Shown here: one piece after another, positions 23,613-51,865 of the stretch
How the letters are laid out: each line of letters starts with the position of its first letter
Position numbering within the stretch: the first letter of the stretch is position 1
Origin: an uncultured Dehalococcoidia bacterium
GTDB taxonomy: Bacteria; Chloroflexota; Dehalococcoidia; Lucifugimonadales; UBA3495
Assembly (NCBI GenBank): GCA_958296385.1
Contig: OY282494.1
Coordinates: 1,897,537 to 1,961,536 of the forward strand
Direction: 5' to 3'
Length of the DNA stretch: 64,000 nt
Notes under the pieces: model-generated
The model's input: the letters and a program-made list of their open reading frames with translations, nothing else
What the model was told of the DNA's origin: nothing
Database searches by the model: none
Made by a program: the position numbers and the translations under genes

Positions 23613-26330
23613 CTATGCGCCCAGTTGGGCGATGATTTCGGCGAGGCGCTGGCGCTGTTCGGAGAGGCCGTCAAAGCGGCTGCGTTCTTTCTCCACCACT
23701 TCGGGGCGGGCTTTGGCGATAAAGTTGGGGTTGTCCAGAAGGCGCTGCACGCGCTGCTGATTGGTGTCGATGTCGTCCAGTTCCTTGTTGAGCCGCTCCG
23801 CTTCGGCGGCGACGTCAACGCCGGTGAGGGGGAGGCGGATGACCAGGGGGTTGACCACCAGGCTGACGCCGGCGGCGGGCGGCTCCGGGTCGCTGGCGGC
23901 GGCGATGCGCAGGGGGGCGATGCGGGCCAGGGCGCCGATGACGGCCTTTTCCTCTTGTACGACGGCATCCAGGCCGTTGGATTCAATGACGGCGGCGAGC
24001 TGCTGGCCGGCGGGGATGCGGAGCTGCGCCCGCATATTGCGGACGGTGCGGACGGCCTGCATCACCACGTCAACCTCGGCCTCGGCGGCGGCGTCAAGGC
24101 GCGGTTCGGCGGCCGGCGGGTAGGGGGCAATCATGATGGAATCGGGCAGTTCGCCGGCCGGGGCGGGCAGGTGGGCAATCAGATTTTGCCAGATTTCCTC
24201 GGTGACGAAAGGCATGAAAGGATGCAGCAGGCGCAGGGCGCGTTCCAGCACGTGGACGAGGGTAGTTGCGGCGGCGGCGGCGTCAGCGTTGTCGTCGCTG
24301 CGCAGGCGCACTTTGGCCATCTCGATGTACCAGTCGCAAAAGTCGTTCCAGATAAAATCGTAGAGCTTTTGCTGGGCCTCGCCCAGTTCGTAGGCGTCCA
24401 GGCCGGCGTTGGCGGCGGCGGCGGCGGCGTCCAGCCGGCTGACAATCCAGCGGTCTGCGCGATGGGCGGGCCGCCGGAGTTCGTGCCAGCCGTCCAGGTC
24501 ATCCCGACCGGCGACGGCGCTGATGACGAACCGGGCGGCGTTCCAGACCTTGTTGGCAAAGTTGCGGCCGGACTCCAGCTTCTCCTCGGTGAGGCGCAGG
24601 TTGTTGCCGGGGGCGGTGCCGGTGGTGAGGGCAAACCGCACGGCGTCGGTGCCGTACTGCTCCACCAGGTCCAGGGGGTCCATGGTGTTGCCCCGGGTCT
24701 TGCTCATCTTTTGACCCTGCGCGTCCAGCACCATGCCGTGCAGATAGACGGAGCGGAAGGGGATGTCGCCGGTGTTCTCGATGCCGAGCATAATCATCCG
24801 GGCCACCCAGAAAAAGAGGATGTCGTACCCGGTTTCCATAACGGCGTTGGGGTAGAAATACTGCAAGTCGGCGGCGTCGGCGTCGGGCCAGCCCAGGGTG
24901 GAATGAGGCCACAGGCCGCTGCTGAACCACGTATCCAGCACGTCGCCGTCCTGCTCGATGCGGTCGCTGCCGCAGTGGACGCAGGCGGGGGGGTCGTCAA
25001 CGCTGGCGGCGTGCTGCCCGCAGGCGGCGCAGTACCACACGGGGATGCGGTGTCCCCACCACAGCTGGCGGCTGATGCACCAGTCGCGGATGTTCTCCAG
25101 CCAGTTGAGATAAACGCGGGTGAAACGGTCGGGGACGATGGCGATGGCGCCGTCGGCAACGGCGGCGTAGGCCCGGCCGGCGATGCTGTCGGGGTCGGTG
25201 TGCCGGCCCACGTTGAGGAACCATTGCAGGCTGATGAGGGGTTCAATCACCTCATCGCACCGCTGGCAATGGCCGACGGAATGATGGTAGTCCTCGACTT
25301 TCTCCAGGACGCCCAGGGCATCCAGCTCGGCGGCAACGGCAGCGCGGGCCTCAAATCGCTCCATGCCGGCGTAGCGCGGGCCGGCGGCGTCGGTCATGCA
25401 GCCGTCAAAGCCGATTATATTGATGATGGGCAGGTTGTGCCGCTCGCCGATTTCGAAGTCAACGACGTCGTGGCCGGGGGTGACTTTCAGCGCGCCGGTG
25501 CCAAACTCCATCTCGATGGCGGCGTCGGCGACGACGGGGATGTGACGCCCCACGATGGGCAGTATCACCGGCTGGCCGATTTTGCCGGCGTAGCGGGCGT
25601 CGTCGGGGTGCACCGCCACGCCGGTATCGCCGAGCATGGACTCCGGGCGGGTGGTGGCAACGACGACGTAATCAGCGGGGTTGTCGGCCATCGGATAGCG
25701 GATGTGGTAGAGCTTGCCGTCCTGCTCGGCGTACTCCACTTCCAGGTCGGACAGGGCGGTAGCGCAGCGGGGACACCAGTTGATGATGCGCTCGTGGCGG
25801 TAAATCAGCCCCTTGTTGAACAGGTTGACGAAAGTGGTGCGGACGGCGTGCACGGGGCCGGGATCCAGCGTGAACCGCAAGCGCGACCAGTCGCAGGAAA
25901 CGCCCAGACGACGATGCTGCTCGTCAATGGTATCGCCGTAGCGCGAGACCCACTCCCAGACGCGGGCCTCAAAGAGCTCGCGTCCCAGCTCGTGCCGGTT
26001 AGTGCCCTCCTCAGCCAGCATCCGCTCCACCACCCACTGCGTAGCGATGCCGGCGTGGTCTTTGCCGGGCAGCCACAGCGTAGGATCGCCGCACATCCGA
26101 TGCCAGCGGGTAAGCGAGTCTTGCAGACTGGCGCCCAGAGCGTGGCCGAGGTGCAGTTCGCCGGTTACGTTGGGCGGCGGCATCACCACGCAAAAAGGCG
26201 TGCGGGAGTGGTCAACGCGGGGCGCAAAGTAGCCGGAATCCCACCAGGTTTGGTAAATACGCTGCTCAACAGCAGCGGCATCATAAGCGCGGGCCATGGC
26301 GGCAGGGGTATCGCTCATAGTTACATCCAT
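23613..26330 (-). CDS. valS: Valyl-tRNA synthetase
   Basis: About 905 residues. The class I signature HIGH is HLGH in [16 protein letters not shown] near residue 56, and KMSKS is [10 protein letters not shown]. The CP1 editing domain ([18 protein letters not shown], then [12 protein letters not shown]) and the C-terminal coiled coil ([17 protein letters not shown]) are complete. The SQWFLNV-type and [18 protein letters not shown] segments are diagnostic for ValRS. A Zn-like knuckle (CAAC...CVHC) lies in the insertion after WWGHR. It charges tRNA-Val. The start is MDVTM at 26330 or MSDTP at 26318; neither has a strong ribosome site. Confidence 0.96.
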
Positions 26331-26434
26331 TAGAGGAAAAGGACGGATACAGGTTATGTTGTGCCAAAAAATGGTAGCACCGCCCCCGCCCAATTGTCCA
26401 CACACGGCGGGGTGGAATACGACGGCAACTAAAT

Positions 26435-26495: not shown

Positions 26496-29400
26496 TCAGG
26501 CGCGGCGGCGCATAAGCAGGGCGATGCCGCCGCCGATGATGGCCAGGGCGATTACGGCGATAATGCCAATCAGCAGCCAGGGCGCGCCGCCGCCGGCCGG
26601 CTCAACGGCCGGCGTCGTAACAACGGTTTCGCCTCCGGCAGCGGGCGTAGGCGCAGCCATCGCCGGCGTCAGTATTGCGATTTGGGATTGGCCGTCCACC
26701 CTGAGCGTTACCTCGGAGCGTACACTTGGCGCTACGATGGGGAGCTGTACGGTTTGGGTTACGCCGGCTGGCACGGTTAGCGTCTGGCGCTGTACGACTT
26801 CGCCGGCGATTTCCAGCACCAGTTGGTACTCGGCGGTTACCGCTCCGGGGTTGGTTACGGGGAACTCTACCATTAGCGCGCTGCCGGGTTGCGGATTGGG
26901 GTTGCTGAAGGTTATATCTCCGATTACCGCCGGCTGCGGAACTATGGCGGCTACCGGGGGCGGTTGCGTTGGCGGCATCGCGGTTGGCGGGGCGGCCGGC
27001 GTTGGTGTGGGGGCCAACGTTGGCATCGGCGTGGGTGCGGGCGCCGGGGTTGGCGTGGGTTGGGGCGCCGGTGTTGTTGTCGGCGTTGGGGCCGGTGTGG
27101 GTTTGGGGGCCGGCGTTGGCGTGGGCCGCGGGGCCGGAGTAGTGCCGCCGCCGCCGCCGGAACCGCCGCTGGGAGTACCGCCGCCGGTGCTGCCGTTGCC
27201 GTTGTCGTCCTCCTCGTCGGGCGGCGGGGGTGGGCCGGCGGTGGTTGCGGCTAGGCGGGCGGCGATGTAGGGGGAGAAGTCGGTTGCGGTGCCGCAGACT
27301 TGGCTGCCGATTTGCCGGGAGCCGGACACGGGCCGCCAGCGGCTGCCATCGTAGTGCAGCATCCGGGGGCCGCCGCTGCCGCCGGCCTGGGGCAGCGGCA
27401 GGCAGACTTGCAGGCCGATTGCTGGCACCGGCTCTACGGTGATGTCCACCAGTGTATCCGGGTCCAGGGTGTAGCCGGAATGTGTGGCTGGGGTGCTGCC
27501 GTCCGGCACGATGCCGATGGTTATGGTGGTGCTTGAGGCCAGGCCCACGCCGCCGGCTGACCGGATGGTTACGCCCTCGGGGATGCCGGCGTTGGTGGTT
27601 ATCGTGTGCGTTGTTGAGGCGTCAACGACGTAGATTGCGGGGTTGCCGGGCGGGGGCGACAGGAATTCGATGGGGGTTGTCGTTGCGCCGCCGCCGGGGG
27701 GAACCGGCTCCAGGAATAGCAGGGGCAGCGGCGTGGTCGGGCTGGCAACGCCCCGGATGGTGGGCGTGTGCGTTATCCCGAACGCGTTATGCACCGTGTC
27801 GCTGTCGGTGGTTGTGGTTACCGTTACCGTCTTGAGAGCGCCGTAGTCGGCAGCGGTAAAGCTCAGGGTGTCCGGGGAAACGGTGACGCCGGGGTTGCTG
27901 CTGGCGATGGCGACGGTGGTATCGGCCGGGGGCGGGTCATTCAGCACCACCGTGTAGCGGGCGCTGCTGTTCTCCAGCAGGGTTATGGTGGTGGTGCTCA
28001 GGGTGATGACCGGCGCGGTGGTGTCCAGGATGGTTACGGATACGTCGGCGGTTTCGCTGGACAGGTAGCCGCCGGTTGCGCTGGGCGTGTGCGTTAGCGT
28101 GTCGCTGCCGATGGTACGGTCGGCGTCGGTTAGGCCCTTGACGGTTACCGTTTGCGGCGTGTTCCAGTTGCCGGCGTTGAAGGTCAGGGTGGGCCGTGTT
28201 GTGGTGGCCAGGCCGGTGTCGTTGGCGATGGTTACGGTTACCGCTGCATCGGGCTGGTGGCTCAGCCTGACGTCGTAGGTGGTTCCGGTGTCATCGCCCT
28301 CAATTACCGCGATGGTGGTGGTTGCCGACGGTAGGATGCTGCCGGTGTCGTTGTCGGTAACGGTTACGGTGAGGGTTGCCGTCTTGCCGGCGAAGTCCCG
28401 GTCGTCGCTGGCCGCGCGGTGGGTAATCCTGATGTCGTTGTGGGCCAGGTTGTCGTCTGCCAGCCCGCGCACGTATATCGTCTTTGCCGCGTAGTCCGCA
28501 TTGGTGAAAGTCAGCGTTTCGCTGCTGGTGAAATCGGTACCGCTGTCGGGGCCGTCAATGGTCAAGCCGTCGTTTGCGGTTATCGTTACGGTTACGTCGG
28601 ACGCGGGCTGGGTGCCCAGGCGCACGGTGTAGCTCCCGCCGCCGCCGCCCTCGCTGTCGTCCTCCTCTCTTACGGTCAGCGTGGGGGCGGACAGCTTGAT
28701 GTCGGGCGTGTCGTCGTCGGTAACGGTTACCGTCAGCGCTTTGCTGATGCCGGCGTAGCCGCTGGCCGTGCCCATCGTCGCATCGCTGGCGGCGTGCGTC
28801 AGCGTGACGGTTTCGTTGTCGTCGTCGCCGTCGGCCGGCGCCCATAGGGTTATCGTTTGCGCCGTGGTGGTGCCGGCGTCGAAATTCAACAGTCGGCTGC
28901 TGACGAAATCGGCGTCGTCGTAAGTTGCGCCGCCGTCGTGGATTGCTGCGGCGTCGGCGTCGCTGCTGCTCACGAGTACGCTTACCCGGGCCAGCGGCGG
29001 GTTGCTCAGGGCTACCTGGTAGGTGACCTGGCTGCCCTCCTCGGCCAGCCCCAGCGTGGTGATGGCCGCGCTGTTTTTCGTCAGGACGATGGTCGGCGTG
29101 GTGGTGTCGGTTACGGTTACGTCCAAGTCAACGTCGGCGGCGGTGCTGAACAGGCTGTCGGTAGCCGTCGTGTTGCTGGCGGCGTGGGTTAGGGTGTTGC
29201 CCGTGCTGGTGGCCAGGTCGTCGTCGGTCAGGCCGCGCACGGTTACCGTTTGCGGCGAGTTCCAGTTGCCGGTTGAGAAACGCAGCGTTTCCTCGTTGCT
29301 GTAATTGAGGCCGCTGTCGGGGCCGTCGATTTCCACGTCGTCGGACGTGCTGCTGGTGATGGTTATGGTTACGCCGGCGGCGGGCTGGTTGCTCAGTTTG

Positions 29401-32400
29401 ACGGTGTAGGTGCCGGTGCCGCCCTCGTCCACCGATAGGGCGGTTTCGGAGAGGATGATGGCTGGGGTGTCGTTGTCAATAATCGGTACGGACAGGGACT
29501 TGCTGACGCCGGCGTAGGCGCTGTCGTCGGGGCCGGCGTTGGAGGCGGTGTGGGACAGGCTGGAGGTGTCGGGGGCCAGGTCGTCGTCGGCCGTGGCGCG
29601 TATCGTTACCGCTTGCGCCGTGGTCCAGTTAGTCGTTGAGAAACTCAGCGTGCGGGTGCTGCCGTAGTTGCCGCTGCCGTCGTTGATTTGCAGGCCGTTG
29701 CCTGCGTCGATGCGGACGCTGACGGCCGCCGTGGGTTCGGTGTTCAGGAGCACGCGGTAGGTGGTGGTGTTCTCCTCGGTTACGGGCAGCGTGGTGATGG
29801 CGGCGTTGTTGGTGCCGTGCCACAGCAGGATTTCCGGGTCGTCGTTGTCGTCAATGGTTACGGTCAGGGTTACGCTGCTGACGCCGGCGTAGCCGCCGCC
29901 GGTGGCCGAGTGGGCCAGCATGGCCGTTTCGCTTTGTGAGTTAGCGTCGTGCGACGGCGCCTGTATCGTTACCATCTGCGCCGTTTGCCAGTTGGAAGTA
30001 GTGAAGCTTATCGTTTCGCTGGCGCTGAACACGGCGCCGGTGTCGGGGCCGTCAATCAGCAGGCCGGTAGCGGCTACGGTTACGGTCACTGTGCCCGTCG
30101 GTTCGTGGCTCAGGGCTACGCCGTAGGTGATGTCGCTGCCCTGCTCATGCACCGTCAGCGCGGTTACGGGGTCGCTGTCGGAATCGGTCAGGAGGAATGT
30201 GGGCGCGGTGGTGTCGGTTACGGTTACGGGGCGGGATACGTCTTCGAGGGCGTGGTAGTTGGCGTCGCCGGCGCTGGTGATGGCGTGGGTGATGGCGGTG
30301 GTTTCGTCGGCCAGGTTGGTGTCGCTCGCCGCGCGGGCCCGGATGGTTTGCGGGCCGTAGTTGTCGGAGGTGAAGGTTAGCGTTTCGGTGATGGTGAAAT
30401 CATTGCCGGTGTTTTTGTCAACGGTTACGCCGGCGGTCGCGGTGACGGTTACGGTTACGGGGGCCGCCGGCCGGTGGCTCAGCGCTACGGTGTAGCTTTC
30501 GGGGCTGCCGCCCTCGATGAGGGCCAGCGTGCTGGTTGCGGACAGGATGATGCTGGCTTCGTCGATGTCCCTAATCGTTACGGGCAGGTTTCGGCTGAGG
30601 CCCTGGTAGGCGCTGTCCGTGCTGCCGGCGACGTGGGTAATCGTGCCGCCGGTTTCGTGGGTCAGGTCGTCGTCGGCAAGGGCCCGCACGGTTACCGTTT
30701 GCAGCGTGTCCCAGGCAGTTGCCGGGAAACTCAGCGTGCGGGTGCTGCCGTAGTTGCCGTTGCCGTCGTTGATTTCCAGGCCGGACGGGGCGGTGACGGT
30801 TACGCTGACGGCGGCCGTGGGCTGGGTGTTCAGGCGCACCCGGTAGGATGCGGTGCCCTCCTCATCTACCGGCAGCGTGCTTAGCGTGGTGGTGGCAGTG
30901 GTGGGGTGCAGCAGGATGTTGGCCGAGTTGATGTCGATAACGGTTACGGGCAGGTCTTTGCTGACGCCGGCGTAGCCGTGGCCCGTGCCGGCGATGGTGT
31001 GGCTCAGGTTGAACCTTTCGCCGATGCCGTCGATGTCGTTCAGCGCCCGCACGGTTATCGTTTGCGCCGCATAGTCCGTCGGGGTGAAAGTGAGCGTCTG
31101 GGTGTTGCCGAGAGTGCCGCTGTCTTTGTTGATTTGTACCGCGTCGGTGTAGTCGCTGGGGACGGTTACGGTTACGGTTACGTTGTCCAGCGGGGCCTGG
31201 TCCAGCGCCACGTCGTAAGTGACTTCGCTGGCCTCCTCGGTTACGGACAGGGCGATGATGTCCACGCTGTTTTGCGTGAGCAGGATGCGGCCCCGGTCGT
31301 TGTCGGTGGTGGTTACGGCCAGCGTGGTGGTGGCGGTGTTCTCAAAGCCGCTGCCCGTGCCGGCGACGGCGAGGTGCGTCAAAGTTGCCGTGTCGTCGGC
31401 CAAGTTGGGGTCGCCGGGGGCGCTGACCGTTACTGTGCGCGGCGAATTGTAGTTGCCGGCATTGAAAGTCAGCGGGGGGTGGCTGGTGGTTACGGCGGCG
31501 TTGTCGCTGGCCACGGTTACGGTTACGGTATTCCCCGCTTTGGGCGCGCCGCCCAGCCGCACGGTGTAGGTGTCGCTGGATCCCTCGTTCACCGACAACG
31601 CGTCGGGAACCAGCACGATGGTATCCCGCCCCTGCGTCAGCAAATCCAGCCCGCCGTATTGCAGTACCGGGTATTGGACGGCGTAGCCAAAGTCCCAGGG
31701 GTCGTCGTTGCCGTTTGCGCCGTCAACGTCCACGTTCCAGGCGGAGTAAATGTCGGTGTAGCCGGTGGGGGATTGCAGCGCGCTAGTCGTCCGGCCGCCG
31801 GTGATGCCGGTGGTTTCGGTGTCCCAATAGCTGTTGACCGCCGTAGCGCCGGAGAACAACCGCCCGGCCAGCCCGCCGGTGTTGACGCTGGCGCCGGCCG
31901 TAACCGCTCCCGTTGCATAAGACGCCGTGATGACGGACGTGCTGCCGGCGAACAGACCGACCAGGCCGCCGGCGTAAGAGTTCGAGCTGTAGCCGCCGGA
32001 TACCGCGCCGGTAGCATAGCTGGCCGTTACCGAGGCGGCGATAGTATGCCCAGCCAGGCCGCCGATTATAACACTTATGGCAGTAGCGGCCTGGGATGCG
32101 GTTACCGTCACGTCGGCATAGCTGGCCCGCACGTTGCCCAGAGAATAACCCACCAGCCCGCCGACGCGTTTGGCGGCGGCGGTGGTACTGGTGGAAGTTA
32201 CGCTGCCGGTAGCCCAGCTGGAAGTTACCGACCCGGTGGCTGTTACGTAGCCGGCCAGGGCGCCGGCACGAATTCCATGGGCGGCCCCGGTCACGTTGAC
32301 GTCAGGCAGGCCCACGCCGGAGATGTCGCCGCTGACGGTAGCGAACAGCCCCACGTTAGTAACGCTGGCGGCGGCGTTAATAGTCAGGTTGGCGATGGTG

Positions 32401-35400
32401 TGGTTGTTGCCGTCAAAGTCACCCGTGTAAGTTCCTCCGATGGGCGACCAGTTGGCGTAGGGGTCGTTGCTGTCCACCGTACCGTCGTCGTTGGTGTCAA
32501 AGTCCAGGTCGGCCGTCAGTTCGTAGCCGGCGCAGGTGCCGGGGCAGCCCATCCGCCCGGTAGCGGTGGTTATGCGGCCGGGGAACGCGGACGCATAGTC
32601 GGCGTGGGTAGCATCGCCGTTGCCGTTCAAGTCGTAACGGATGGCGTTGAGCTGGGCCAGGTTGGACACGTCAATCAGGTTGTTGTCGTCCCGGTCGTAG
32701 TCCACGGTAATGCCGACGGCCAGTGTGGTGGTGGCGGTGTCCTCAAAGCCGCTGCCGGGGCCGGTTGCGGTGTGGGTCAGCGTGGCCGCGCCCAGGGACG
32801 CGGCGGCGTCCACCCGGACGGTTATCGTTTGCGCGTCATCCCAGCCGGTGGTTGAGAAACTCAGCGATTCGTCGATGGCAAAGGTGCTGTCGTCATCGTC
32901 AATGGTTACGCTGGTGTTGTTGCTGAGGATGTCCACCGTTACCGCCGCTGTGGGCTGCGCGCCCAGCCGCACCGAGTAGGATGCCGATTCCCCCGCCTCC
33001 ATATCCAGCGCGGCCGGCGTCAGCACGATGGTATCCCGCTCCTGTTGCAGGGGGGACAGCCCGTCGTATTGCAGTACCGGGTATTGGGAATCGTAGCCGA
33101 AGTGCCAGGGGTCGTCGTCAGCGGAGGTGCCGCCAACGTCCACGTTCCAATCGGAGTAAATGCCGGTGGCTCCGTAGGCGGTGGGGGATTGCAGTTCGGC
33201 GGTGGTTTTGCCGAGGCCGGCGCCCGTGCCGGTGATGCCGCTGGTAGTCGTGTCCCAATAGCTGTTGACCACCGTAGCGCCGAAGAGCAGCCCCCCGGCC
33301 AGCCCGCCGGTGTTGGCGCCCGTGCCGGCCGTAACCGCCCCCGTCGCATAAGACGCCGTGATGACGGAGGCGCCGTTGGTGGCCAGTCCGACCAGGCCGC
33401 CGGCGTAAGAGGAGATGCTGGTGCCGCCGGCTACCGCGCCGGTAGCATAGCTGGCCGTCAGCGCGCTGGAGCTCAGAAGGCCCACCAGGCCGCCGGCCCG
33501 CACCGCGATGGCAGTATTGGCGGCAGTTACATCCACCCCGGCATAGCTGGCCCGCACTGGGCCCAAGGCGTAACCCACCAGCCCGCCGATAATTCTGATC
33601 TCTAAGCCGGTACTGGTACTGGTGGAAGTTACGCTGCCGGTAGCCCAGCTGGACGTTACCGTCCCGCCGGTGTCAAGCCGGCCGGCCAGCGCGCCGATGC
33701 GGATTATATTGGCGGCCCCGGTCACGCTGGCATCGGGCAGTCCGATGCCGGAGATGTCGCCGCCGACGGTAGCGAACAGCCCCACGTTAGTAACGCTGCT
33801 GGCGGCGTCAATAGTCAGGTTGGCGATGGTGTGGTTGTTGCCGTCAAAGGTGGACGTGTAGGTTCCTCCGATGGGCGTCCAGTTGGGGTAGGTGTCGCTG
33901 CTGTCCACCATGCCGTTGTCGTTGGTGTCAAAGTCCAGGTCGGCCGTCAGTTCGTAGCCGGCGCAGGTGGTTTGGCAGCCCATGCTGGCGGCGCGGCCGG
34001 GGAACGCCATGGTGTAGGCGGCTGCGTCGCTGGCAAGTACCGTGCCATCGCCGTTCAAGTCGTAGCGGATGGCGTTGAGCTGGGCCAGGGTGGTGATGTC
34101 AATGAGGTTGTTGTCGTCGCGGTCGTAGTCGATGGTAATGCCGACGGCCAGTGTGGTGGTGGCGGTGTCCTCAAAGCGGCTGCCGGGGCCGGCGACGGTG
34201 TGGGTCAGCGTGGCCGCGCCCAGGGATGCGGCGGCGTCCACCTGGACGGTTATCCTTTGCGCCGTGAGCCAGTCGGTAGTTGAGAAGTCCAGCGTTTCGC
34301 TGCCGGTGAACGCAGCAGCGGCGTCGGGGCCGTCAAAGGTTACGTCGGCGCTGTCGCTGGCGATGGCTACCATTACCGCCGCTGTGGGCTGCGCGCCCAG
34401 CCGCACGGTGTAGGTTGCGGTGTCTCCCGCCTCCAGATCCAGCGCGGCGGGCACCAGCACGATGTTATCCCGGCCCTGCCGGAACACGTCCATCCCGTCG
34501 TACTTTAGCGCCGGGTACTGCACTTCATAGCCAAAGTGCCAGGGGTCGTCGTTAGCGGAGGTGCCGCCAACGTCCACGTTCCAATCGGCGTAGATGCCGG
34601 TTCCGTAGTCGGTGGGGGATTGCAGGGCGGCGGTGGTTTGGCCGCCGGTGATGCCGCCGGTGTCGCTGTCCCAATAGCTGTTGACCGGGGCTGGGGCGCC
34701 GATGTTCAACTCCCCGACTACGCCGCCGGTGCGGGCGCCCGCGCCGCCGGTAACCGTTCCGGTGGCATAAGAGGCCGTGATGGTGGACGGGGCGCCCCGG
34801 GCCCGGCCGGCCAGCCCGCCGACGCGGGAGGCTGCGCCGACGCCGCCGGATACCGGGCCGGTAGCATAGCTGGCCGTTATCTGGCCCAGGTTCAGCGAAC
34901 CCACCAGCCCGCCGGTGTACGTCCACACCGCCGCCGAGTTGGTGCTTACCGCTGCCTCGGAATAGCTGGCCCGTACCGCGCCCTGGGCCGTGCCCAGCAG
35001 CCCGCCGGCCCGTTTGGTCAGGCCGCTGCCGCTGACGCTGCTGGTGGAGGTTACCGAACCCGTACTCCACGCGGCGGTTACCGTCCCGCCGGTGTTCAGC
35101 CGGCCGGCCAGCGCGCCGGCGTAGATGTTACTGGCCGCCCCGCTCACGCTGGCATCGGGCAGTCCGATGCCGGACACGTCGCCGCTGATTTGGCCGAACA
35201 GCCCCACGTAGCCCACGCTGGCGGCGGCGTTGATAGTCAGGTTGGCGATGGTGCGGTTGTTGCCGTCAAAGTCGCCCGCGTAAGTTCCTCCGATGGGCGT
35301 CCAGTTGGGATATTCGTCGCCGGCGCCTACGCCGGGGGTGCCGTCGGTGTCAAAGTCCAGGTCGGCGGTTAGTTCGTAGCCGGCGCAGGTTGCGGGGCAG

Positions 35401-38400
35401 CCCATGTCGGCGGGGCGGTTGGGGTAGGCGGTGGTGTAGGCGGCGGCGTCGGCAGCAAGTACGGTGCCGTTGCCGTCCAGGTCGTAGCGGATGGCGTCGA
35501 GCTGGGCCAGGCTGGTGACGTCAATGAGGTTGTTGTTGTTGACGTCGTAGTCTGCGGTGACGGTTACCGTTAGCGTGGTGGTGGCGGTGTTCTCAAAGCC
35601 GCTGCCCGTGCCGGCGGCGGCGGTGTGGGTTAGCGCGGCGGCAGCGCCCAGGGTGACGCCGCTGTCCACGCTGACGGTTACGTTTTGCTCCGTAGCGTAG
35701 GTGCTGTCGGTAAAGTTCAGCGTGGCCCGGTTGATGGTTACGTCCGGGTTGTCGCTGGCTAGGGTTATCGCTACCGGCGCCGTGGGCGCGGCCCCCAGCC
35801 GCACCGAGTAGGATGCCGTTTCCCCCGGCTCCAGGTCCAGCGCGGCCGGCACCAGCACGATGGTATCCCGGGCCTGCGTCAGCAAGTCCAGCCCGTCGTA
35901 TTGCAGTACCGGGTACTGGACGGCGTAGCCGAAGTGCCAGGGGTCGTCGTTGCCGTCAGCGTCCCCGGTGCTGGTATCGCCGTCAACGTCCACGTTCCAG
36001 GCGGCGTAGATGTCGGTGGTGGTGCTGGTGCCGTAGGCGGTGGGCGTGCGCAGCTCGTTGGTGGTTTTGCCGAGGCCGGCGCCCGTGCCGGTGATGCGGC
36101 TGGCGTCGGTGTCCCAATAGCTGTTGGTGATGACGGCGCTGCCGGGATTATTGCCGGCCAGCCCGCCAACGTTGGCGTTGGGGCCGGAGCTGGGCGTTCC
36201 TATCGCGTAGGACGCGGTGATGCCGGGGGTGGTGCCGCCCATGGAGCCCACCAGGCCGCCGACGTAAGAGGAGTTGCCGGTGCCGCCGGTGACGCTGCCG
36301 GTGGCATAGCTGGCGATGATGTTGCCGCCGGTGAGCGACCCGGCCAGCCCGCCGGCGCCGATGCTGATGGCGCTGTCGGATGCGGTTACCGCGGCGGTAG
36401 AATAGCTGGCCCGCACCGTGCCATAGACGAAACCCGCCAGCCCGCCAACGTATTTAACGGAGGCGCCGGTGTCGGTCGAGGTTACGCGGCCCGTACTCCA
36501 GCTGGAGGTTACCGTGCCGGCCGCCTGCACCGTGCCGACCAGCGCGCCGGCGGCGGCGGTGGTGCCGGCGCTGGTTACGGTGGCATTGTCCAGTCCGATG
36601 CCGGAGATGGCGCCGGTTATGGTGCCGAACAGCCCCACGGTGCTGACGCTGGCGCCGGCGGCGATGTTCAGGTTGGCTATGGTATGCCCGTTGCCGTCAA
36701 AGGTGGACGCGTAGGTTGCGATGGGCGTCCAGTTGGGGTATTCGTCGCCGCTGCCTACGCCGGGGATGCCGTCGGTGTCAAAGTCCAGGTCGTTCCGCAG
36801 TTCGTAGCCGGCGCAGGCGCCGGGGCAGCCCATGCGGGCGGTGGGGGTGGTGATGCGGCCGGGGAACGCGGCTATGTAGTCGGCGTGGGTGGCATCGCCG
36901 TTGCCGTCCGGGTCGTGGCGGATGGCGTTGAGCTGGGCCAGGGTGGTAATGTCAATGAGGTTGTTGTCGTTGCGGTCGTAGTCGATGGTGATGCCGACGG
37001 GGAGGTTGGCGCTGAAGCCGTCAAAGCGGCTGCCGGGGCCGGTGGCGCTGTGGGCCAGCGTGGCATCGCCCAGGGTTGCGCCGCTGGCGACACGGACGGT
37101 TATCGTGCGCGGCGTGAGCCAGTCGGTGGTTGAGAAGTTCAGCGTTTCGCCGATGGCAAAGCCGCCGTCGTCGTGGTCAATGGTTACGCTGGCGCTGTTG
37201 CTGCCGATGTTCACCGTTACCGCCGCCGTGGGCGCCGCGCCCAGCCGCACGGTGTAGGTTGCCGTTTCCCCGGCCTCCATGTTCAGCACGGCGGGCGCCA
37301 GCACGATGTTATCCCGCCCCTGCCGGAACACGTCCAGCCCGTCGTACTTTAGCGCCGGGTACTGCACCGCGTAGCCAAAGTCCCAGGGGTCATCGCCCCC
37401 CGTAACGCCGTCAACGTCCACGTTCCAACCGGCGTAAATGCTGGTGGTGGTGCTGGTGCCGTAGGCGATGGGGGATTGCAGCTCGGCGGTGGTTTTGCCC
37501 ACGCCGGCGCCCGTGCCGGTGATGCCGCTGGTAGTCGTGTCCCAATAGCTGTTGACCACCGTAGCGCCGGAGAGCAGAAAACCGACCAGCCCGCCGATGC
37601 TGTTCGCGTCCGACGTAACCGTTCCCGTTGCATAAGACGCCGTGATGACGGACGCGCCGGTTTGGGCCACTCCGACCAGGCCGCCGACTTGAGAGTTGCC
37701 GCCGGCGCCGCCGGCTACCGCGCCGGTAGCATAGCTGGCCGTCAGCGTGCCGCCGAACAGATAGCCCACCAAGCCGCCGGCCGCCACCGAGGTGGCAGTA
37801 TTGGCGGCAGTTACATCCACCCGGGCATAGCTGGCCTGCACTGGGCCCGCGGCGTAACCCACCAGCCCGCCGATAAGTTTGTTAGCGGAGCCGGTACTGG
37901 TATTGGTGGAAGTTACGCTGCCGGTAGCCCAGCTGGACGTTACCGCCCCGCCGGTACTCACCTGACCGGCCAGGACGCCGGCGTTGATTGTAGCAGCGGC
38001 CCCGGTAATGCTGGCGTCAGGCAGGCCCACGCCGGACACGTCGCCGCTGATTTGGCCGAACAGCCCCACGTAGCTCACGCTGCCGGCGGCGTTAATCGTC
38101 AGGTTGGCGATGGTGTGGTTGTTGCCGTCAAAGTTGCCGGTGTAAGTTCCGCCGATGGGCGTCCAGTTGGGGTAGGTGTCGCTGCTGTCCACCATGCCGT
38201 TGTCGTCGGTGTCAAAGTCCAGGTTGGCGGTTAGTTCGTAGCCGGTGCATCCGGTGGGGCAGCCCATGCCGGGGGTGAGGCCGGGGAAGGCGGCGGCGTA
38301 TTGCGCGGCGTCTGGGCCCGTTGCCGTTGCCCCGTCGCCATCCAGGTCGTAGCGGATGGCGTCCAGCCGGGCCAGGGTGGCCACGTCGATGAGGTTGTTG

Positions 38401-41400
38401 CCGTTGGCGTCGTAGTTGACGGCGGCGGCGTTGGGGGTGCGCTGCCGCTGGATGCCCCGGGCATCCTGGCCGAATTGCAGGATGGGATATTGCGCGTTGG
38501 TGCCAAAGTTCCAGGGGTCGTCGTTGCCGCCCGCGCCGTCAACGTTCACGTTCCATCCGGAGTAAAGGCCGGTGGTTCCGTAGTCGGTGGGCGATTGCAG
38601 GACCGAGGTGCTGCGGCCCTCCGGCCCGGTAGTGTCGGCGTCGTCGTTGATGCCGGTGGTGGTGGTATCCCAATAGCTGGCGGTGGTGGTGGGCGGGTCG
38701 AGGCTGTTAAAGTTGAACAGGCCGTTGATGTTGACGCCGGCGCCGCCGGTAACGGTTCCGGTGGCATAAGAGGCGATGACGTTGCTGGTGGCGCCGTCCA
38801 CGTAACTGGTCAGCCCGCCGATGAAAGAGAAGTTGGCGCCGCCGCCGGTTACGCTGCCGGTGGCATAGCTGGCGATGATGTCGGCGTTGCTCAGGTAGCC
38901 CGCCAGCCCGCCGGCAAAGACGTTGACGGTGGTGGTGGCGGTGGCTGCGGTGGTGGTGGCGGTGGAGTAGCTGGCCCGGATGTTGCCGCTGGCAACGCCC
39001 ACCAGCCCGCCGAGGGTTTTAGTGCCCCGGCCGGTGTCGGTAGCGGCGATGCGGCCGGTACTCCAGCTGGCCGTTACCGAGCCGGCCGCGTCCACCTGGC
39101 CGGCCAGCGCGCCGACGTCCAGCGCGCCGCTGCCGGCGGCGGCAATGCTGGCGTTGGGCAGTCCTACGCCGGAGATGGCGCCGCTGGCCCGGCCAAACAG
39201 CCCCACGTCGTCAACGGTGGCGCCGGCGTTGATGGTCAGGTTGTCGATGACGTGGTTGTTGCCCTGGAACGTGCCGCTGTACGCATTTGCGCCGCCGCCG
39301 ATGGGCGTCCAGTTGGGATACTGGTCGTCGCTGTCCACCATGCCGCTGTCGTTGTCGTCAAAGTCCAGGTCGTTCCGCAGTTCGTAGCCGGTGCAGGCGG
39401 CGGCGCAGCCCATGCCGGGGGACGGGTAGAGGTAGGCGGCGGCGTAGGCGAGGGCGCCGGCGCCGGCGGTGTTGTCGGCGGCCCCATCGCCGTTCAAGTC
39501 GTAGCGGATGGCGTTGAGCTGGGCCAGGGTGGTTACGTCGATGAGGTTGTCGTCGTCGGTATCGTAGTCGTGCTCCGGCACGGCGATGGTGACGGTGTAG
39601 CTTTGGGCAATGCCGTTCTGGGGGGTGACGGTGATGGTGATTACGGTGCTGGGGCCGCCGAGGATGACCTGATGGTCGGCGGTGTCGGCATCGGCGTCGG
39701 CGGTAACGGGGGCGGCGGTGCCGGCCACGGCGCGGTAGGACACCGCAGCGGTGGGGTTGGTGGAGGTGGCCGCTACGGTGACGGTGATGCCGGTTGGGTC
39801 GTCGGGCAGCGTTGCGGTGTAGGTGAGGTTTGCCGTGGCAAAGGGGGCCGACAGCGCCGCCCCGGTTACCGTGAGCGTGGCCAGCGCGCCCACGGAGGGC
39901 TGGAGGTTCACCTGCATGACGGTGTCCATCCCGTCGTACTGCAAGACGGGATATTCGTCGTAGGCGCCGAAATCCCAGGGGTCGTCGTTGCCGCCAGCGT
40001 CCCCGGTGCCGGTATTGCCGTCAACGTTCACGTTCCAGGCGGCGTAGATGCTGGTAGTGGTGCTGGTGCCGTAGGCGGTGGGCGTGCGCAGTTCGTTGGT
40101 GGTTTTGCCGAGGCCGGCGCCCGTGCCGGTAATGCCGCTGGCCTCGGTGTCCCAATAGCTGTAGGTTACCGCCCCGGCCGCCACCTGCCCGGCCAGCCCG
40201 CCGACGATGGTGAGGACGTCCGCGCCGGCCGTAACCGCCCCGGTTGCATAAGACGCCGTTATTACCGACCCGGCGCCGGTTACTTGTCCGACCAGTCCGC
40301 CGACGTAAGAGAAAAAGCTGCCGGCGCTGCCACCGCCGGCTACCGCGCCGGTAGCATAGCTGGCCGTTATCCGGCCCTGGTTCAGCGTACCCACCAGCCC
40401 GCCGGTGTACGTCCGGAGCGCCCCCGAGTTGACGCTTACCGCGGCCGCGGAATAGCTGGCCCGCACCGCGCCCTGGGCCGTGCCCAGCAGCCCGCCGGCC
40501 CGTTTGATCCGGCTGCTGCTGTTGACGCTGCTGGTGGAGGCTACCGTACCCGTACTCCAGCTGGCGGTTACCGTCCCGCCGGTGTTCAGCCGGCCGGCCA
40601 GCGCTCCGATGTTGATTGTATCGGCGGCCCCGGTCACGCTGGCGTTGGGCAGTCCGATGCCGGAGATGTTGCCGCTGACGGTAGCGAACAGCCCCACGTC
40701 ATTAACGGTGCCGGCGGCGTCAATAGTCAGGTTGGATATGGTGTGGTTGTTGCCGTCAAAGTTAGCCGAGTAAGTTCCGCCGATGGGCGTCCAGTTGTCG
40801 TAGGGTGCGTCGGCTACGTTATCATCGCCGGTAGTGTCAAAGTCCAGGTTCCGGCGCAGTTCGTAGCCGGCGCATCCGGTGGGGCAGCCCATGCCGGTGC
40901 TCAGGCCGGGGAAAGCGGCCAGGTAGCGGGCGCTGGCGCTGCCCTGGGCCACGGCCCCATCGCCGTTCAAGTCATAGCGGATGGCGTCCAGCTGGGCCGG
41001 CGACCGGACGTCAATCAGATTGTCGTCGTCGTCGTCATAGTCCATCGGGCTGGCGGCGGGGCGCTGCTGCTGGATGCCGCTGACGTCCTGCTGGTATTGC
41101 AGGACGGGGTATTGGGAGGCCGTGCCAAAGTCCCAGGGGTCGTCGTTGCCGGCGGCGCCGTCCAGGTTCAGGTTCCAGGTGGAGTAGATGCCGGTAGTGC
41201 CGTAGGCGGTGGGGGATTGCAGGGCGGTGGTGAGCAGTCCCTCAGGGGCGTTGGTGTCGGTGTCGTCGGCAACGGTAGTGGTGGTGGTGTCCCAATAGCT
41301 GGCGGTGATGGCGGTGCGGCTTTCGCCGGCGTTAGTGCCGCCGGTAACGGTATGGTTGGCCCGGTTCTCACCCACCAGGCCGCCAATGGCGGCGGCGCTG

Positions 41401-44400
41401 GCGCCGGTAACCCGTCCGGTAGCGTAGCTGGCGTTGATGGTAGCGGTAGTGATGCCGTGCACGCCGACGCCCTCAACGCCCTGGGTTGAGGTAAAAGGCG
41501 TGCGGTCGCTGTTGTTGTAGCCGACCAGCCCGCCCAGCCGGTTGCTGGCGCCGGTGCCGCCGTTGACGGCGCCGGTAGCGTAGCTGGCCCGGATGTTGGA
41601 GTTGGCCCGGTTGGCGGCGCGCCCGTCGTTGGTCAGGTAGGCGAGGTTTTCGCCGACCAGCCCGCCGGCGCGGGCGTTGTTGCCGGTAACGCTGACGGCG
41701 CCGGTAGCGTAGCTGGCGGTAAGGTTGCTGGTGGTGGTGACCGCGGAGGTTCCGCCGCCGTCGGCCGAGCCCTGGAACCAGCCCACCAGCCCGCCGACCC
41801 GGGCGTTGTTGCTGGCGGAGCTGACGGCGCCGGTGGCGTAGCTGGAGGTGATGTTGCCGGGCGCGACGCGGCCCACCAGCCCGCCGGCGTTGGTAGTGGC
41901 GCTAACGGTGCCGGCGGCGTAGCTGGAGGTGATGCTGGCGTAGTTGTCGTTGAGGCCAATCAGGGTAGCCGTCAGCCCGCCGGCCTCGCCGCCCTGGGCC
42001 GCAACGTTGACGGTGGAATAGCTGTCGGCGATGGTGCCGGGGTGGTTGACCTGCCCGGCCAGCCCGCCGGCCCGGTCGCCGGTAACGGTGACGCTGCCGC
42101 CGGTAGAGTAGCTGTTGGCAATAGTGCCGCCGCCGGCGTGGCCCACCAGCGCGCCGGCCCGGTGCTCCGCGCGGATGTTCACGTCCTCCAGCGCGATGTT
42201 GCGCAGGGTTGCGCCGGCAGTCTGCCCGAACAGGCCCACCCGGTTACCGGACGGGCGGTTGATGTAGAGATTGGAGATGGCGTAGTCGGCGCTGTTGCCC
42301 TCAAAGGTAGAGGTAAATTGCACGCTATTATCGCCGATGGGCAGCCAGCCCAGGCCGCCGTTGGAATAGGCGTCGTCGGTGCGGTCGTTGACGGTGTTAG
42401 TGTCAAAGTCCAGGTCGGCCCGCAGCTCGTAGCCGGCGCAGGTTCCGGCGCAGCGATTCCCGCCGGAGGGGTAGGGAAAGGCGGCCCGGTAGGCGGCGGC
42501 GTTGGCCGTGCGGTCCGCGGCCCCATCGCCGTTCAAGTCGTAGCGGATGGCGTTCAGCTGGGCCAGCGTCTTGACGTCAATCAGATTGTCGCGGTCGTCA
42601 TCGTAATTGTTCACGGGGACGCGGATGGTGACGATGTAGTCGGTGGCCGAGCCGTCCGGGGCGCTGACGGTAATAGTGATGTACGTTTCGGGGCCGGCGA
42701 TATTGACCTGGTAGCCGGGGGCGGAATCGGCGTCGGTAGTCACGGCGGCGGCCGTGCCGGCGATGGCGCTGATGGCCACCGTAGAGCTGGCGCCGGAGAG
42801 GTAGGTCACGGTGACGCTGTCGATGGGGGCGGCGGGCAAGTTTGCAGTGTAGGCGGTAGTGCCCGGCGTAAAGGTCGTGGCCAGCGTGGCGGGGGTAACG
42901 AGGAGCACGGACAGGGTGTCGTCGTTAGCGATGAACGGCTGCGCGCGGAACTGCCGCCCGGTGTCCAGCCCGCCGTATTGCAGAACCGGGTACTGGCTGA
43001 TGGTGCCAAAGTTCCAGGGGTCGTCGTTGCCGTCGGCGTCTCCGGTGCCGGTATTGCCGTCAACGTTCACGTTCCAGGCGGAGTAAATGCTGCCGGTGGT
43101 TCCGTAGGCGGTGGGGTTGCGCAGCTCGTAGGTCTTTTGGCCCGTGCCGGGGCTGTTGGCCTGGTCAGTATCGGCGCGGCCGCTGGCGGTGGTGTCCCAA
43201 TAGCTGTTGGTTACCCGGCCGGGCTGATTGCCGGCCAGCCCGCCGATGTTGGCGCCGGGGCCGCCGCTGGGCCGGCCCCGGGCGTAGGACGTGGTGATGC
43301 TGGCGCTGCTGTGCATGGAGCCCACCAGGCCGCCGACGTAAGAGGCGCTGCTGGTGCCGCCGGCGACGTTGCCGGTGGCATAGCTGGCCGACAGCGTGGT
43401 GCCTTGCAGACGGCCGGCCAGACCGCCGGCGTGCACCGTAGTGGCAGTCGGGGCGGCCGTTACGTCCACCCCGGCATAGCTGGCCCGCACCGCCGGACCG
43501 GAAGCGAAGGAGAAACCCACCAGCCCGCCGAGATATTTAGTACCGGCGGTGGCACTGGTGGAAGTTACGCTGCCGGTAGCCCAGCTGGAACTTACCGACC
43601 CGCCGGCAAGCAGCTGGCCGGCGATGACGCCGATGCGGACCCCATCGTTGGCCCCGCGCACGCTGGCATCGGGCAGTCCGATGCCGGAGATGTTACCGCT
43701 GACGCTGGTGAACAGCCCCACGTTACTCTGGTGGGGGGCGTCAATAGTCAGGTTGGCGATAGTGTGGTTGTTGCCTTTAAGAATGCCGCTGTACCAACCG
43801 TCGATGGGCGTCCAGTTGGCAAAGGGGGCGTCGGCGATGCCGTCGTTGCCGGTAGTGTCAAAGTCCAGGTTCTGCCGCAGTTCGTAGCCGGTGCAGGTAT
43901 CCGGGCAGCCCATGCCGATGCTCAGGCCGGGGAACGCCGGCGCGTAGCCGGCGCTCTCCCGCCCCCGGGGCAGCAGCCCATCGCCGTTCAGGTCATAGCG
44001 GATGGCGTCCAGCTGGGCCGGCGACCGGACGTCAATCAGATTGTCGTCGTCGTCGTCATAGTCCAACGGGGTGGCGCCGGGGTTGCGCTGCCACTGGATG
44101 CCGATGACGTCCCGGTTGAATTGCAGGATGGGGTACTGGGAGGCCGAGCCAAAGCTCCAGGGGTCATCGGCGGCGCCGGTGTCAACGTTGATATTCCAGC
44201 CGGAGTAGATGCCGGAGTAGCCGGTGGGCGTTTGCAGGGCGCTGGCGGTTTGGGCCGTGCCGCCGCCGCCGGTGTGGGTGCAGACGCCGGTGCTCCAGTA
44301 GCTGTTGGTTACGGTGCCGTTGGTATCGGCCGACGTCAGGCAGTTCGTAGTGCCGCTGCCGGTAACGGCGCCGGCGGCGTAGCTGGCGATGATGGTACCG

Positions 44401-46508
44401 CCGGCATTGCTGTTGGCCAGCCCGCCGGCGCTGCCGGCCGCGCTGACGGCAGCGGTGGAATAAGCCGCGCGGATGGTTCCCGCGTTCCAGCCGACCAGCC
44501 CGCCGGCAAAGGAGTTGTTGCCGGGGGCGCTAACGGAGCCGCCGCGGACAAAGACGGCGCTAATCGTGCCGTCGTTTTTGTCCGCCAGCGCACCGACGGC
44601 CGAACTGAAACCCGAAACGCTCACCCTGGGGTTAATCAGTCCCAATGCGGTGACCGTACTGCCACTGCCCAAATTCGTGAATAGCCCGCGCTGTTCACGA
44701 AGCGACTGGCTCCCGCTGCTGGCCAGGTTGGAGATGGTATGGCCGTTGCCCTGGAAAGTGGACGTGTAAGTTCCGAGGGGCGACCAGTTGGCATAGGGGG
44801 CGTCGGCGCTGTTATCGCTGCTGCCGTCGGTATTGAAGTCCAGGTCGGCCCGCAGCTCGTAGCCGGCGCAGGCGCTGGCGCAGCCCATCCGCCCCGTGGC
44901 CAGTACCTGGTGGTGCGGAAAGGCGGCAACGTAACCGGCGTGGGTCGCATCGCCGTTGCCGTTCAGGTCATGGCGGATGGCGTTCAGCTGGGCCAGCGTC
45001 CGGATGTCAATCAGATTGTCGTTGTCGTCGTCGTAGTCGTTGAGCAGGTATTGCAGGACGGGGTATTGCGATGCCGTGCCAAACGCCCAAGGGTCATCGT
45101 TGCCGGCTACGCCGTCCAGGTTCCGGTTCCAGCTGGTGTAGGGGCCGGAGTAGTCCGTCGGCGTTTGCAGCTGGGTGGCGGTGCGACTGCCGTCGCCGCC
45201 GGCCGAGCAGACGTCAGAACTGTAATAACTGGCGGTGATGGTGCCGCGGATAGCCCCAGCAGTGTTGCGCGTCAGGCAGCCGGCCCTGGCGTTGGCGCCG
45301 GTAGCGGTAACGGCGCTGGCCGCGTAGCTGTATTCAATAGTTGCGTTGCGATTGATGTTGCTGCCCACCAGCCCGCCAACAATATCGCGCGTGCCGGTGC
45401 TGCTCACCGTGGTTCCGGAGGCGTAAGACGCCCGTACCATCTTGCGATTAATCCCCACCAGCCCGCCGACGCCCCCGTCCCCCCCGCTAGAGGTAACAGA
45501 GCCGCCCCGGACGTAAGAGGCGCTGATGATGCCGTGGTTATCCCCCACCAGCCCGGCGGCAAAGCCGCCGTTCCTCGTGGACACCACAGTAGGATTAATC
45601 AGACCCACTGCGGTGACGACGCCGGAACCGCCCAGCGTGGAGAACAGCCCGGCGTTCCGGGCGTTGATGTTCAGGTTGGAAATGGTATGGCCGTTGCCCT
45701 GGAAAGTAGTCTCAAAGGTATTGATGGGCGACCAGTTGGCATACTCGCTGCTGCCGGAAAAGTCCAGGTCGGCCATCAACTCATAGCCGGCGCAGGTACC
45801 CGGACAGCCCATGCGCCCGGTAGCGCCGGATACACGGCCCCGAAAAGCGGCGTTGTAAGCAGCAGCGCCGCCGGCAGATGGATCGCCGTCGCCATCCCGG
45901 TCATGCTCCATAGCCGCCAGCTGCGCCAGCGTAGTAACGTCAATCAGGTTGTCGTCATCAGCATCGTAATCGAAATAGTTAACTCTATGATTGGCCTGAG
46001 GGGTAGCCAGATCGTTGGGGAGAGTAGGGCTGCCGTGGGTGTGTACGGCCGAGTTGCAGTTAGAGACGCTATCGGAGCTAGCCCAGGTGCCGGAAAGGGC
46101 GTTCGGGGCCACCGTAATGCCGTCGGCGTCCAGATCGTCGGCAACGACCGTATAACTGAATTGCACGTGCCAGGAGGTTGGGTTCTGTCTAGTCGGCGAG
46201 CTGGCGCGCCCGCTGGGAGAGACGGGGCGGACGTTGTCGCCAATAGTAATGGCCAGCGAGCCGTTGCCGTGGCCGCTAATGCAGTGGTCGGCAAAGATCT
46301 CCACGAGGATGGTATCGCCGGTATCATACTTCTGGTCTGGGCCGGGATTGCTGGTGATTTCGACGCTATAGACCGTAAGAGTGCCGGTTGCGGCGGCCGG
46401 CCGGGCCTCCGGCAGCAGCCAGCCGGCCAGCCCCGCCAGCACGACAAAGAGGGCCAGCGCAACGCCGGCCAGCGCAAAGCGGCGGCGGCGACGGCGGCGG
46501 CGGGGCAT
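26496..46508 (-). CDS. Giant multi-repeat surface protein: GLUG blocks, Calx-beta-like domains, C-terminal membrane anchor
   Basis: About 6,670 residues in one frame over 20 kb. Residues 1-40 are an Arg-rich start plus a hydrophobic signal or anchor. Residues 40-175 are a beta-rich head. Residues 177-4960 are 11 blocks of 310-520 residues, each opening with D-x-[DN]-x-[DN]-N-L-I-D and holding several GLUG-type strands (GGLVG...SYATG). Two cadherin-like beta domains follow blocks 3 and 5, and Calx-beta-like domains follow blocks 7-10. Residues 4960-6246 are 11 further Calx-beta-like domains. A Pro/Thr stalk (about 6453-6516), a CARDB-like domain (about 6531-6606) and a membrane helix ending LLMRRRA complete it. 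It is probably an adhesin or matrix protein. ATG 46508 follows a G8 run; an in-frame TTG at 46634 would add a hydrophobic extension. Confidence 0.9.
27770..31630 (-). repeat. Stack of 11 Calx-beta-like domains in the giant protein
   Basis: Eleven consecutive domains of about 117 residues. Each starts like SIILS...[14 protein letters not shown], continues with a TVTVRA strand and a LTHTA segment, and ends in VTDNDTP or VTDTTAP. Calx-beta domains commonly bind Ca2+ and form rods. Four more of the same type sit between blocks in the upstream region. Sequence identity between units is moderate, so this stack looks older than the GLUG blocks. Confidence 0.8.
31640..45980 (-). repeat. Eleven GLUG-containing blocks in the giant protein
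   Basis: Block starts lie near 45978, 45045, 44070, 42613, 41045, 39573, 38420, 36987, 35556, 34135 and 32704. Each block opens with the NLIDV/I segment and an [14 protein letters not shown] loop. MGCPxxCAGYEL with two Cys, DLDFDT with an EF-hand-like loop, and NWTPIGG follow. The body is 3-6 GLUG strands, then SYWDT and DDPWxFGxxxQYPVLQY. Blocks 7-11 are alike at the DNA level, with a period of about 1.43 kb. Confidence 0.85.
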
Positions 46509-46753
46509 CAAACTACCCCCCCCGTTCCGAACATTCGCACTAAGCAGCATAACCACACCCCAGCCGGCAAGCATCGGCCAAACCTCCGAGCCCAACAAGT
46601 ACCATAAGCCAGCCACCAACGCAAAGCATAACAACCGCAGATTTTACCACAAAAGCGGCGGCCTAACGCAACCTACCTACCCACCACGCAGCCGCCGGCG
46701 GGTTTGAGCAATACCCCGCAGGATAGATGCTTACGCCGGCCGGCGTCCCAAAG

Positions 46754-48543: not shown

Positions 48544-48580
48544 GCTGAACCTCTGGAGGCCGGTGGGGTGCGTGGGGCGC

Positions 48581-48586
48581 ATTATA
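48581..48586 (-). promoter_or_regulatory. -10 box of Uma2 gene 4
   Basis: TATAAT on the minus strand about 38 bp before the ATG at 48543, in the same relative setting as the box for gene 3. Confidence 0.35.
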
Positions 48587-48695
48587 CCTGTTCTGAGCTC
48601 GGGCTGGCGTGCTGGATTGGGGGCTTTAGGGCGGAAAGACCGGGTGGGTTGGGGCTGATATAATCTGGGGAGCATTTTTGTTTGGAGGGTGGGTT

Positions 48696-51634: not shown

Positions 51635-51664
51635 TCGCTTTGCCCCTTTAACTGCCTCAACTAC

Positions 51665-51686
51665 GTCATCACCACGACGTGATGAC
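51665..51686. promoter_or_regulatory. Inverted repeat between nuclease A and the methyltransferase
   Basis: GTCATCAC and GTGATGAC are perfect 8-bp arms around a 6-bp spacer. Three GTCCGG direct repeats at about 9-10-bp spacing follow at 51704-51728. With no T tract a terminator is unlikely; an operator for the cassette is possible. Apart from this and the promoter downstream, I see nothing else in 51635-51943. Confidence 0.4.
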
Positions 51687-51836
51687 CGTCCTGCTGGGCT
51701 TGCCGTCCGGGGTGTCCGGACTGTCCGGGCTGATTTGCGGCGCTCCCGGGCTATAACGCCGGCATTTAGCTACGGCGGCGCCTCCACGACTACATCGCCA
51801 GTGCGACGTAGCCGTGATTTCTCGCAGGACGGTTGA

Positions 51837-51865
51837 TTGATCTTTATGTTCTAATCCCGTATATT
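51837..51865 (+). promoter_or_regulatory. Sigma70-type promoter of the methyltransferase gene
   Basis: TTGATC at 51837-51842, a 17-bp spacer, and TATATT at 51860-51865, about 80 bp before the ATG. This would give the methyltransferase its own transcript, separate from nuclease A. Confidence 0.6.

Follow-up and report, generated by a model that had tools for sequence, protein, structure and literature searches.

The question raised by this locus is what a bacterium does with a single reading frame of 20 kb, which stands on the minus strand of the window analysed here (64,000 nucleotides of contig OY282494.1 from an uncultured Dehalococcoidia bacterium), and how such a gene is maintained and used. 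Uncultured Chloroflexota are usually read through their metabolism. We have found an intact giant gene that evolves under purifying selection. We consider it fairly probable that its product of 6,670 amino acids (aa) is a giant surface rod anchored in the membrane and stabilised by calcium, with adhesion as its likeliest role, and that it belongs to a paralogous repertoire probably switched on and off.

The reading frame is open over 26496..46634 (6,712 open codons counted from a TTG), and a start at the ATG (46508) yields a product of exactly 6,670 aa. The GC content by codon position (0.59/0.57/0.84) is a coding signature. The longest exact repeat within the open reading frame (ORF) is 74 bp and the repeated blocks are at most 82% identical at the DNA level. 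A collapse or miscount of blocks in the assembly is therefore unlikely, and assembly collapse was rejected as an explanation of the block number. The features of the gene and its product are as follows, from the N terminus to the C terminus.

26496..46508, minus strand: giant surface protein gene, 6,670 aa plus stop (ORF, codon signature, omega below 1 against congener blocks)
46395..46508, minus strand: Sec-type signal peptide with hydrophobic core, residues ~1-38 (hydropathy; similar N termini in paralogues)
45975..46391, minus strand: N-terminal domain, residues 40-178, related to the N-terminal domains of several paralogues
45048..45974, minus strand: GLUG block 1, from residue 179
44118..45041, minus strand: GLUG block 2, from residue 490
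42975..44066, minus strand: GLUG block 3, from residue 815
42612..42974, minus strand: cadherin-like beta sandwich 1 (PF12733; Pfam)
41094..42611, minus strand: GLUG block 4, long, residues 1300-1805
39936..41045, minus strand: GLUG block 5, from residue 1822
39573..39935, minus strand: cadherin-like beta sandwich 2 (PF12733; Pfam), best stretch residues 2210-2308
38472..39572, minus strand: GLUG block 6, from residue 2313
37344..38420, minus strand: GLUG block 7, from residue 2697
36990..37310, minus strand: immunoglobulin (Ig)-like (Calx-beta-like) domain 1, between GLUG blocks 7 and 8
35898..36986, minus strand: GLUG block 8, from residue 3175
35559..35864, minus strand: Ig-like domain 2
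34500..35555, minus strand: GLUG block 9, from residue 3652
34137..34466, minus strand: Ig-like domain 3
33066..34133, minus strand: GLUG block 10, from residue 4126, first part of the structural model
32709..33032, minus strand: Ig-like domain 4
31656..32705, minus strand: GLUG block 11, from residue 4602
27726..31622, minus strand: tail of 11 tandem Ig-like (Calx-beta-like) domains
27264..27713, minus strand: beta domain near the C terminus that contains two Cys, by eye similar to ZU5 and conserved among paralogues (alignment)
26928..27263, minus strand: Gly-rich and Pro/Thr stalk
26664..26927, minus strand: CARDB-like domain, without Pfam support (paralogue alignment)
26505..26600, minus strand: C-terminal transmembrane (TM) helix with RRR tail, membrane anchor (hydropathy; conserved in paralogues)

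The 11 GLUG blocks counted in the sequence-only reading of this DNA were borne out: Pfam Glug (PF07581) scored 65.6 and 45.3 bits (cut-off 20.5) in 9 + 6 stretches. Every block opens with an Asp-rich loop, typically DYDxDxDNLIDV, and a conserved CxxxC pair is present in the blocks. The two cadherin-like domains of that reading were likewise recovered as PF12733 (26.1 bits; cut-off 24.2), in two stretches after GLUG blocks 3 and 5. Its 15 Calx-beta-like domains stand as a number but not as an uninterrupted array, since four of these Ig-like domains alternate with GLUG blocks 7-11 and only eleven form the continuous tail. Pfam Calx-beta (PF03160) was absent at E≤1 in hmmscan of the giant protein and membership in that family by sequence was rejected; by Foldseek, tandem Calx-beta domains come nearest to the predicted fold. 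The CARDB-like stretch matched no Pfam family above the cut-off and its label remains a resemblance; a LapA domain also stayed below the cut-off (16.5 bits vs 27). Hydropathy revealed only two hydrophobic segments (residues 9-35 and 6637-6668), in agreement with the signal or anchor and the C-terminal membrane helix with a basic tail that had been claimed. The C-terminal helix ends in RRRA, so that a signal peptide is combined with a single C-terminal TM helix and its basic tail, as in a membrane-anchored protein. Because there is no further hydrophobic segment, nearly the whole protein is predicted to lie outside the membrane.

An AlphaFold2 (AF2) model of GLUG block 10 with its Ig domain (predicted local distance difference test, pLDDT, 86.9) matched 3n6z, a putative IgA1 protease of B. 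ovatus, with a VIA Z of 32.1 (root-mean-square deviation 3.1, 285 residues). The M26 IgA1 proteases matched with VIA Z 24-27 and the next match with only 12.0. The sequence profile of the block also found 3n6z (E 5.7e-14). According to the model, each GLUG block is a beta-helix of the M26 IgA1 protease type. The likeness to these metalloproteases (3n6z, 6xja; PMC7695701) extends to both fold and sequence of the block; unlike them, the giant protein repeats the helix 11 times and has no catalytic domain. For the Ig tandem (AF2 model, pLDDT 89.1), the top Foldseek match was NCX1 CBD12 (E 6.4e-9). NCX1/CALX CBD12, the tandem Calx-beta domains, are among the best Foldseek matches of the tandem, which also has conserved acidic positions, but it has no Pfam Calx-beta match and no sequence match in PDB, and other Ig-like folds reach the same VIA Z (10.7). 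The acidic positions E12, D82 and D120 are conserved in the Ig-domain alignment, which no more than hints at Ca2+ binding by these domains. The role proposed earlier, that of a long, rod-like, calcium-dependent adhesin or matrix protein, thus holds for the anchored rod and for probable calcium sites (signal peptide and TM helix, beta-helix, Calx-beta-like tandem, Asp loops); adhesion or a matrix function is an inference.

Selection on the gene was assessed against the congener G006 (OY282456.1, an uncultured Dehalococcoidia bacterium), which carries its own set of giants, partly colinear block by block with that of the source genome (G000). In a G006 relative of 5,546 codons, blocks 1, 3, 5, 6 and 7 are colinear with blocks 1, 3, 5, 6 and 7 of the window gene at 71-79% identity. 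The maximum-likelihood (ML) omega was 0.25-0.58 in every GLUG block tested, with likelihood ratios against omega=1 of 7-43. Core genes gave omega of about 0.01-0.05 and antisense shadow frames of core genes 2-4.5; values below 1 in the GLUG blocks are informative because the shadow frames reach so high. Positive selection on the blocks, to which NG86 estimates (0.67-0.94) might have pointed, was dropped in view of the ML values obtained with codon frequencies. Together with the intact ORF and the codon signature, omega below 1 in all tested blocks upholds the claim that the uninterrupted 20-kb frame is a real gene, and a collapse of blocks, one of the refuting conditions named in that reading, is unlikely with repeats so short and so divergent.

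The synonymous divergence (dS) of the GLUG blocks was 0.26-0.53, compared with at least 1.7 (often saturated) for syntenic core genes. As block divergence lies so far below that of the core genome, exchange between the species after their split is suggested as the simplest reading; codon constraint could lower dS somewhat. The 5,546-codon relative adjoins pdxS/pdxT-like genes (read from flanking ORFs), not valS, which is the downstream neighbour in the window:

23613..26405, minus strand: valS, downstream neighbour of the giant gene

The giant gene belongs to a large family. A GLUG block query found more than 150 match places on the 3.3-Mb complete chromosome, and the family occupies at least 12 loci, whose open frames measure 8,579, 7,915, 6,715, 5,597, 4,279 and 3,437 codons, besides smaller ones and broken clusters. 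Two paralogues are longer than the window giant. The 12 loci are dispersed and add up to 170,961 bp (171 kb), which is 5.2% of the genome. Most paralogues have the same signal peptide and anchor module at their two ends. Outside this genome the distribution is narrow: GLUG was present in 30 of the 294 sampled genomes of the class, with most candidates by far in the source genome, and among 147 genomes of the order the full-length anchor module occurred only there. In another Chloroflexota family, multi-GLUG frames reach 3,665 codons. The sequence-only reading knew of no described protein with this domain order and proposed a search for it in related Chloroflexota. The uniqueness which this implied does not hold, given at least 12 paralogues and a similar set in the congener, but the exact anchored architecture was indeed not found in the 146 other genomes of the order. 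No relatives were found in viral contigs or plasmids and a phage or plasmid origin was rejected. In the literature searched, no link of this metagenome-assembled genome (MAG) to a host was found.

Several members of the family deviate from the window gene. The 7,915-codon GLUG paralogue (G000:C1:2203960-2227704, L026-L027) has a different C-terminal region and carries neither this type of Ig tail nor an Uma2 gene or a poly-G run at its start. Two more tandem giants (G000:C1:2948699-2991424, L032-L034) contain frame changes or a stop not at long homopolymers, and g2853 (L031) breaks just past its signal peptide. The CARDB-like/TM anchor of the giants also occurs in a 1,367-aa protein with another repeat ectodomain (L094:3160-7260, minus strand; G000:C1:271159-275259), which is followed by a similar protein (268002-271052).

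The evidence for switching comes from homopolymeric tracts. The window gene has one at its 5' end:

46516..46523, minus strand: poly-G tract G8, 7 nt before the ATG, at Shine-Dalgarno (SD) spacing; paralogue counterparts G8 to G20

In most family members such variable runs (G8-G20) lie 4-18 nt upstream of the start codon; the 5'-end runs are G8, G8, G12, G13, G14, G15, G17 and G20. Identical left flanks of 15 nt are shared by the window gene, g1979 and g2152, whose runs are G8, G8 and G12, respectively. Several relatives in the congener carry G8-G16 or C6-C18 near the same place. In 487 kb of sequence, nine runs of at least 12 were observed against 0.6 expected, six of the nine at starts of giant genes, and six paralogous loci have runs of 12 or more. 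Genome-wide, 23 G/C runs of at least 10 were counted in the source genome and 20 in G006. Many of the remaining tracts stand at genes for PMT-type membrane transferases, leucine-rich-repeat (LRR) proteins, glycosyltransferases (GT1 and GT2), an N6/N4 DNA methylase, a sulfotransferase and a surface protein of Ig-like type; a few stand at genes with no link of this kind. In three groups of PMT-like genes from the source genome and G006, in two of which Pfam support is weak, the tract lies within the frame. Three copies are in frame (tract lengths 14, 12, 13) and five out of frame (16, 13, 10, 16, 24), as predicted within each group from length modulo 3.

Some further tracts were noted in passing. 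PMT-like families with in-frame poly-C tracts are found at L125, L138, L142, L145, L146 and L032. In the window itself, a C18 run (2353-2370) lies in an ORF on the plus strand (2305-3693) for a membrane-type protein without a Pfam match, with PPPPPP near its N terminus; homologues at L134 (27) and L141 (12 and 13) carry the same tract. In the source genome, a G26 run lies at the 5' end of the N6/N4 DNA methylase gene (L135:506-1492, minus strand), and the apparent G006 homologue (L136:11558-12553, plus strand) has a 12-base run, which makes this methylase a candidate for a possible phasevarion.

Pathogenic Neisseria species and N. lactamica carry about 15-20 poly-G tracts per genome by a criterion of at least 9 (PMC5953494). 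Like these, the present tracts are found at genes for surface proteins and glycosyltransferases, either upstream of them or within the frame, but they belong to Dehalococcoidia and their switching is putative. We lean towards the view that this lineage has a Neisseria-like phasome, in which more than 20 hypermutable poly-G/C tracts would switch giants, PMT-type and other glycosyltransferases, LRR proteins and a DNA methyltransferase and thus generate combinatorial surface variation. Switching by slippage is what we infer from tract placement, the spread of lengths and the frame states of the PMT-like genes, with the window G8 short for it.

Several observations weigh against such switching. 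The G8 of the window gene is one below the Neisseria phasome criterion (PMC5953494); a phase-variable locus of the simple-sequence-repeat type is recognised by poly-G/C of at least 9 no more than 200 bp from its 5' ATG. In a MAG, the length of a homopolymer may be read wrongly. Four of the 12 family loci (g598, g627, g2203, g2980) have no clean G run of at least 8. Another congener, G010, has no run of at least 10, and tract counts range from 0 to 68 among 40 relatives, so that the idea of tracts unique to giant-bearing genomes was rejected. Finally, several paralogues have frame breaks away from long homopolymers, and part of the giant family may be decaying.

The alternative that survives best, although we regard it as unlikely, is a constitutive structural surface layer or matrix, in which the giants would form a coat or an S-layer-like lattice and the G tracts would be ribosome-binding sites, strong and G-rich, without switching. 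In most members 4-7 nt separate the G run from the ATG, which is a good SD spacing, an S-layer-like wall that replaces peptidoglycan has been discussed for Dehalococcoidia (PMC10608941), and the VIA lists for the Ig tandem also contain the S-layer proteins SbsB and SbsC. However, G13-G20 are not needed for a ribosome-binding site, and the run lengths in the 487 kb fall into two groups: lengths of 10-11 are absent and those of 12 and above are in excess. The same kind of tract occurs inside PMT-like coding frames, where an SD function explains nothing, and twelve divergent paralogues fit a repertoire better than one lattice.

The neighbourhood of the giants raises a second alternative. Upstream of the window gene lie two genes of the Uma2 family:

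46754..47578, minus strand: Uma2-family (PF05685) gene directly upstream of the giant gene
47698..48675, minus strand: second Uma2-family gene, in tandem

At 10 of the 12 family loci, 1-3 Uma2 (PF05685) genes stand directly upstream on the same strand, and the DNA is 75-90% identical over about 500-700 bp. The giant could therefore be the cargo of a selfish or mobile unit, spread through the genome by an Uma2 nuclease, and this would fit the finding that no giant gene was seen upstream of valS in the congener valS loci examined. We consider this quite improbable. The G006 giants have no Uma2 gene of this type upstream, which also led us to reject Uma2 as an obligate partner; Uma2 genes are abundant across the genus regardless of giants, and the purifying selection to which the giant is subject shows that it has its own function. 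The pairing is accounted for by segmental duplication, and we read it as hitchhiking rather than as a functional pair. Uma2 matches number 91 in G000 and 127 in G006, and 6-127 per genome across the genus, often in tandem arrays.

A surface-tethered enzyme of the IgA1 protease (IgA1P) type, with the GLUG helices as the substrate-gating part of a hydrolase, is very improbable: it could draw on the M26-type helix, on Pfam Peptidase_M26_N (28.0 bits; cut-off 27.7) and on S. pneumoniae IgA1P, in which the beta-helix of the N-terminal domain moves and acts as a gate through which the substrate hinge reaches the active site (PMC7695701), but neither HExxH nor an LPxTG anchor (LPxT[GA]) was found anywhere in the 6,670 aa and no catalytic family in Pfam or NCBIfam, and the absence of HExxH indicates that the helix was retained without the enzyme.

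If the giants are a switched repertoire of anchored surface rods, the following mechanism can be proposed. The protein would pass through the Sec system and stay attached by its C-terminal helix as a predicted rod of beta-helices and Ig domains, stabilised by calcium as the Asp loops and the Calx-beta-like fold suggest. The Ig tail and the Pro/Thr stalk would hold the GLUG beta-helices away from the cell, where they might bind glycans or glycoproteins, by analogy with IgA1P and with beta-solenoid adhesins such as the Apilactobacillus kunkeei giants. Slipped-strand mispairing would alter the G tract at a ribosome-binding or promoter position, so that cells would display different subsets of giants, and intragenic duplication and interspecies exchange would diversify the blocks. 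A giant adhesin repertoire amounting to 5% of the genome and equipped with contingency tracts would, if confirmed, imply surface selection that maintains stochastic switching, with host immunity, phages or predators as candidate selective agents.

Among the closest known systems are the proteins Giant1-5 of A. kunkeei, which have 3,000-8,000 aa and take up about 6% of the genome (PMC12863079). These are likewise several extracellular paralogues with beta-solenoid domains, interspecies exchange and intragenic recombination. In contrast to the A. kunkeei giants, which combine one N-terminal solenoid with alpha-helical repeats and are encoded in a single cluster, the present proteins contain 11 GLUG beta-helices with Ig tails and a TM anchor, their loci are dispersed and bear poly-G tracts, and they come from another phylum. 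Large surface-protein genes have been counted in Chloroflexota as 'giant genes' (PMC10608941); neither these nor other multi-GLUG proteins have been described as a family of this architecture. No description of giant beta-solenoid surface proteins combined with contingency-type tracts was found in the literature searched, and no report of phase variation in Chloroflexota among open-licence PMC papers.

Beyond the Uma2 genes, the window contains a stretch of low GC content (50861-53648; 0.55), in which two DUF6996/DUF6997 proteins flank an N6/N4 DNA methylase and which resembles a recently acquired restriction-modification locus.

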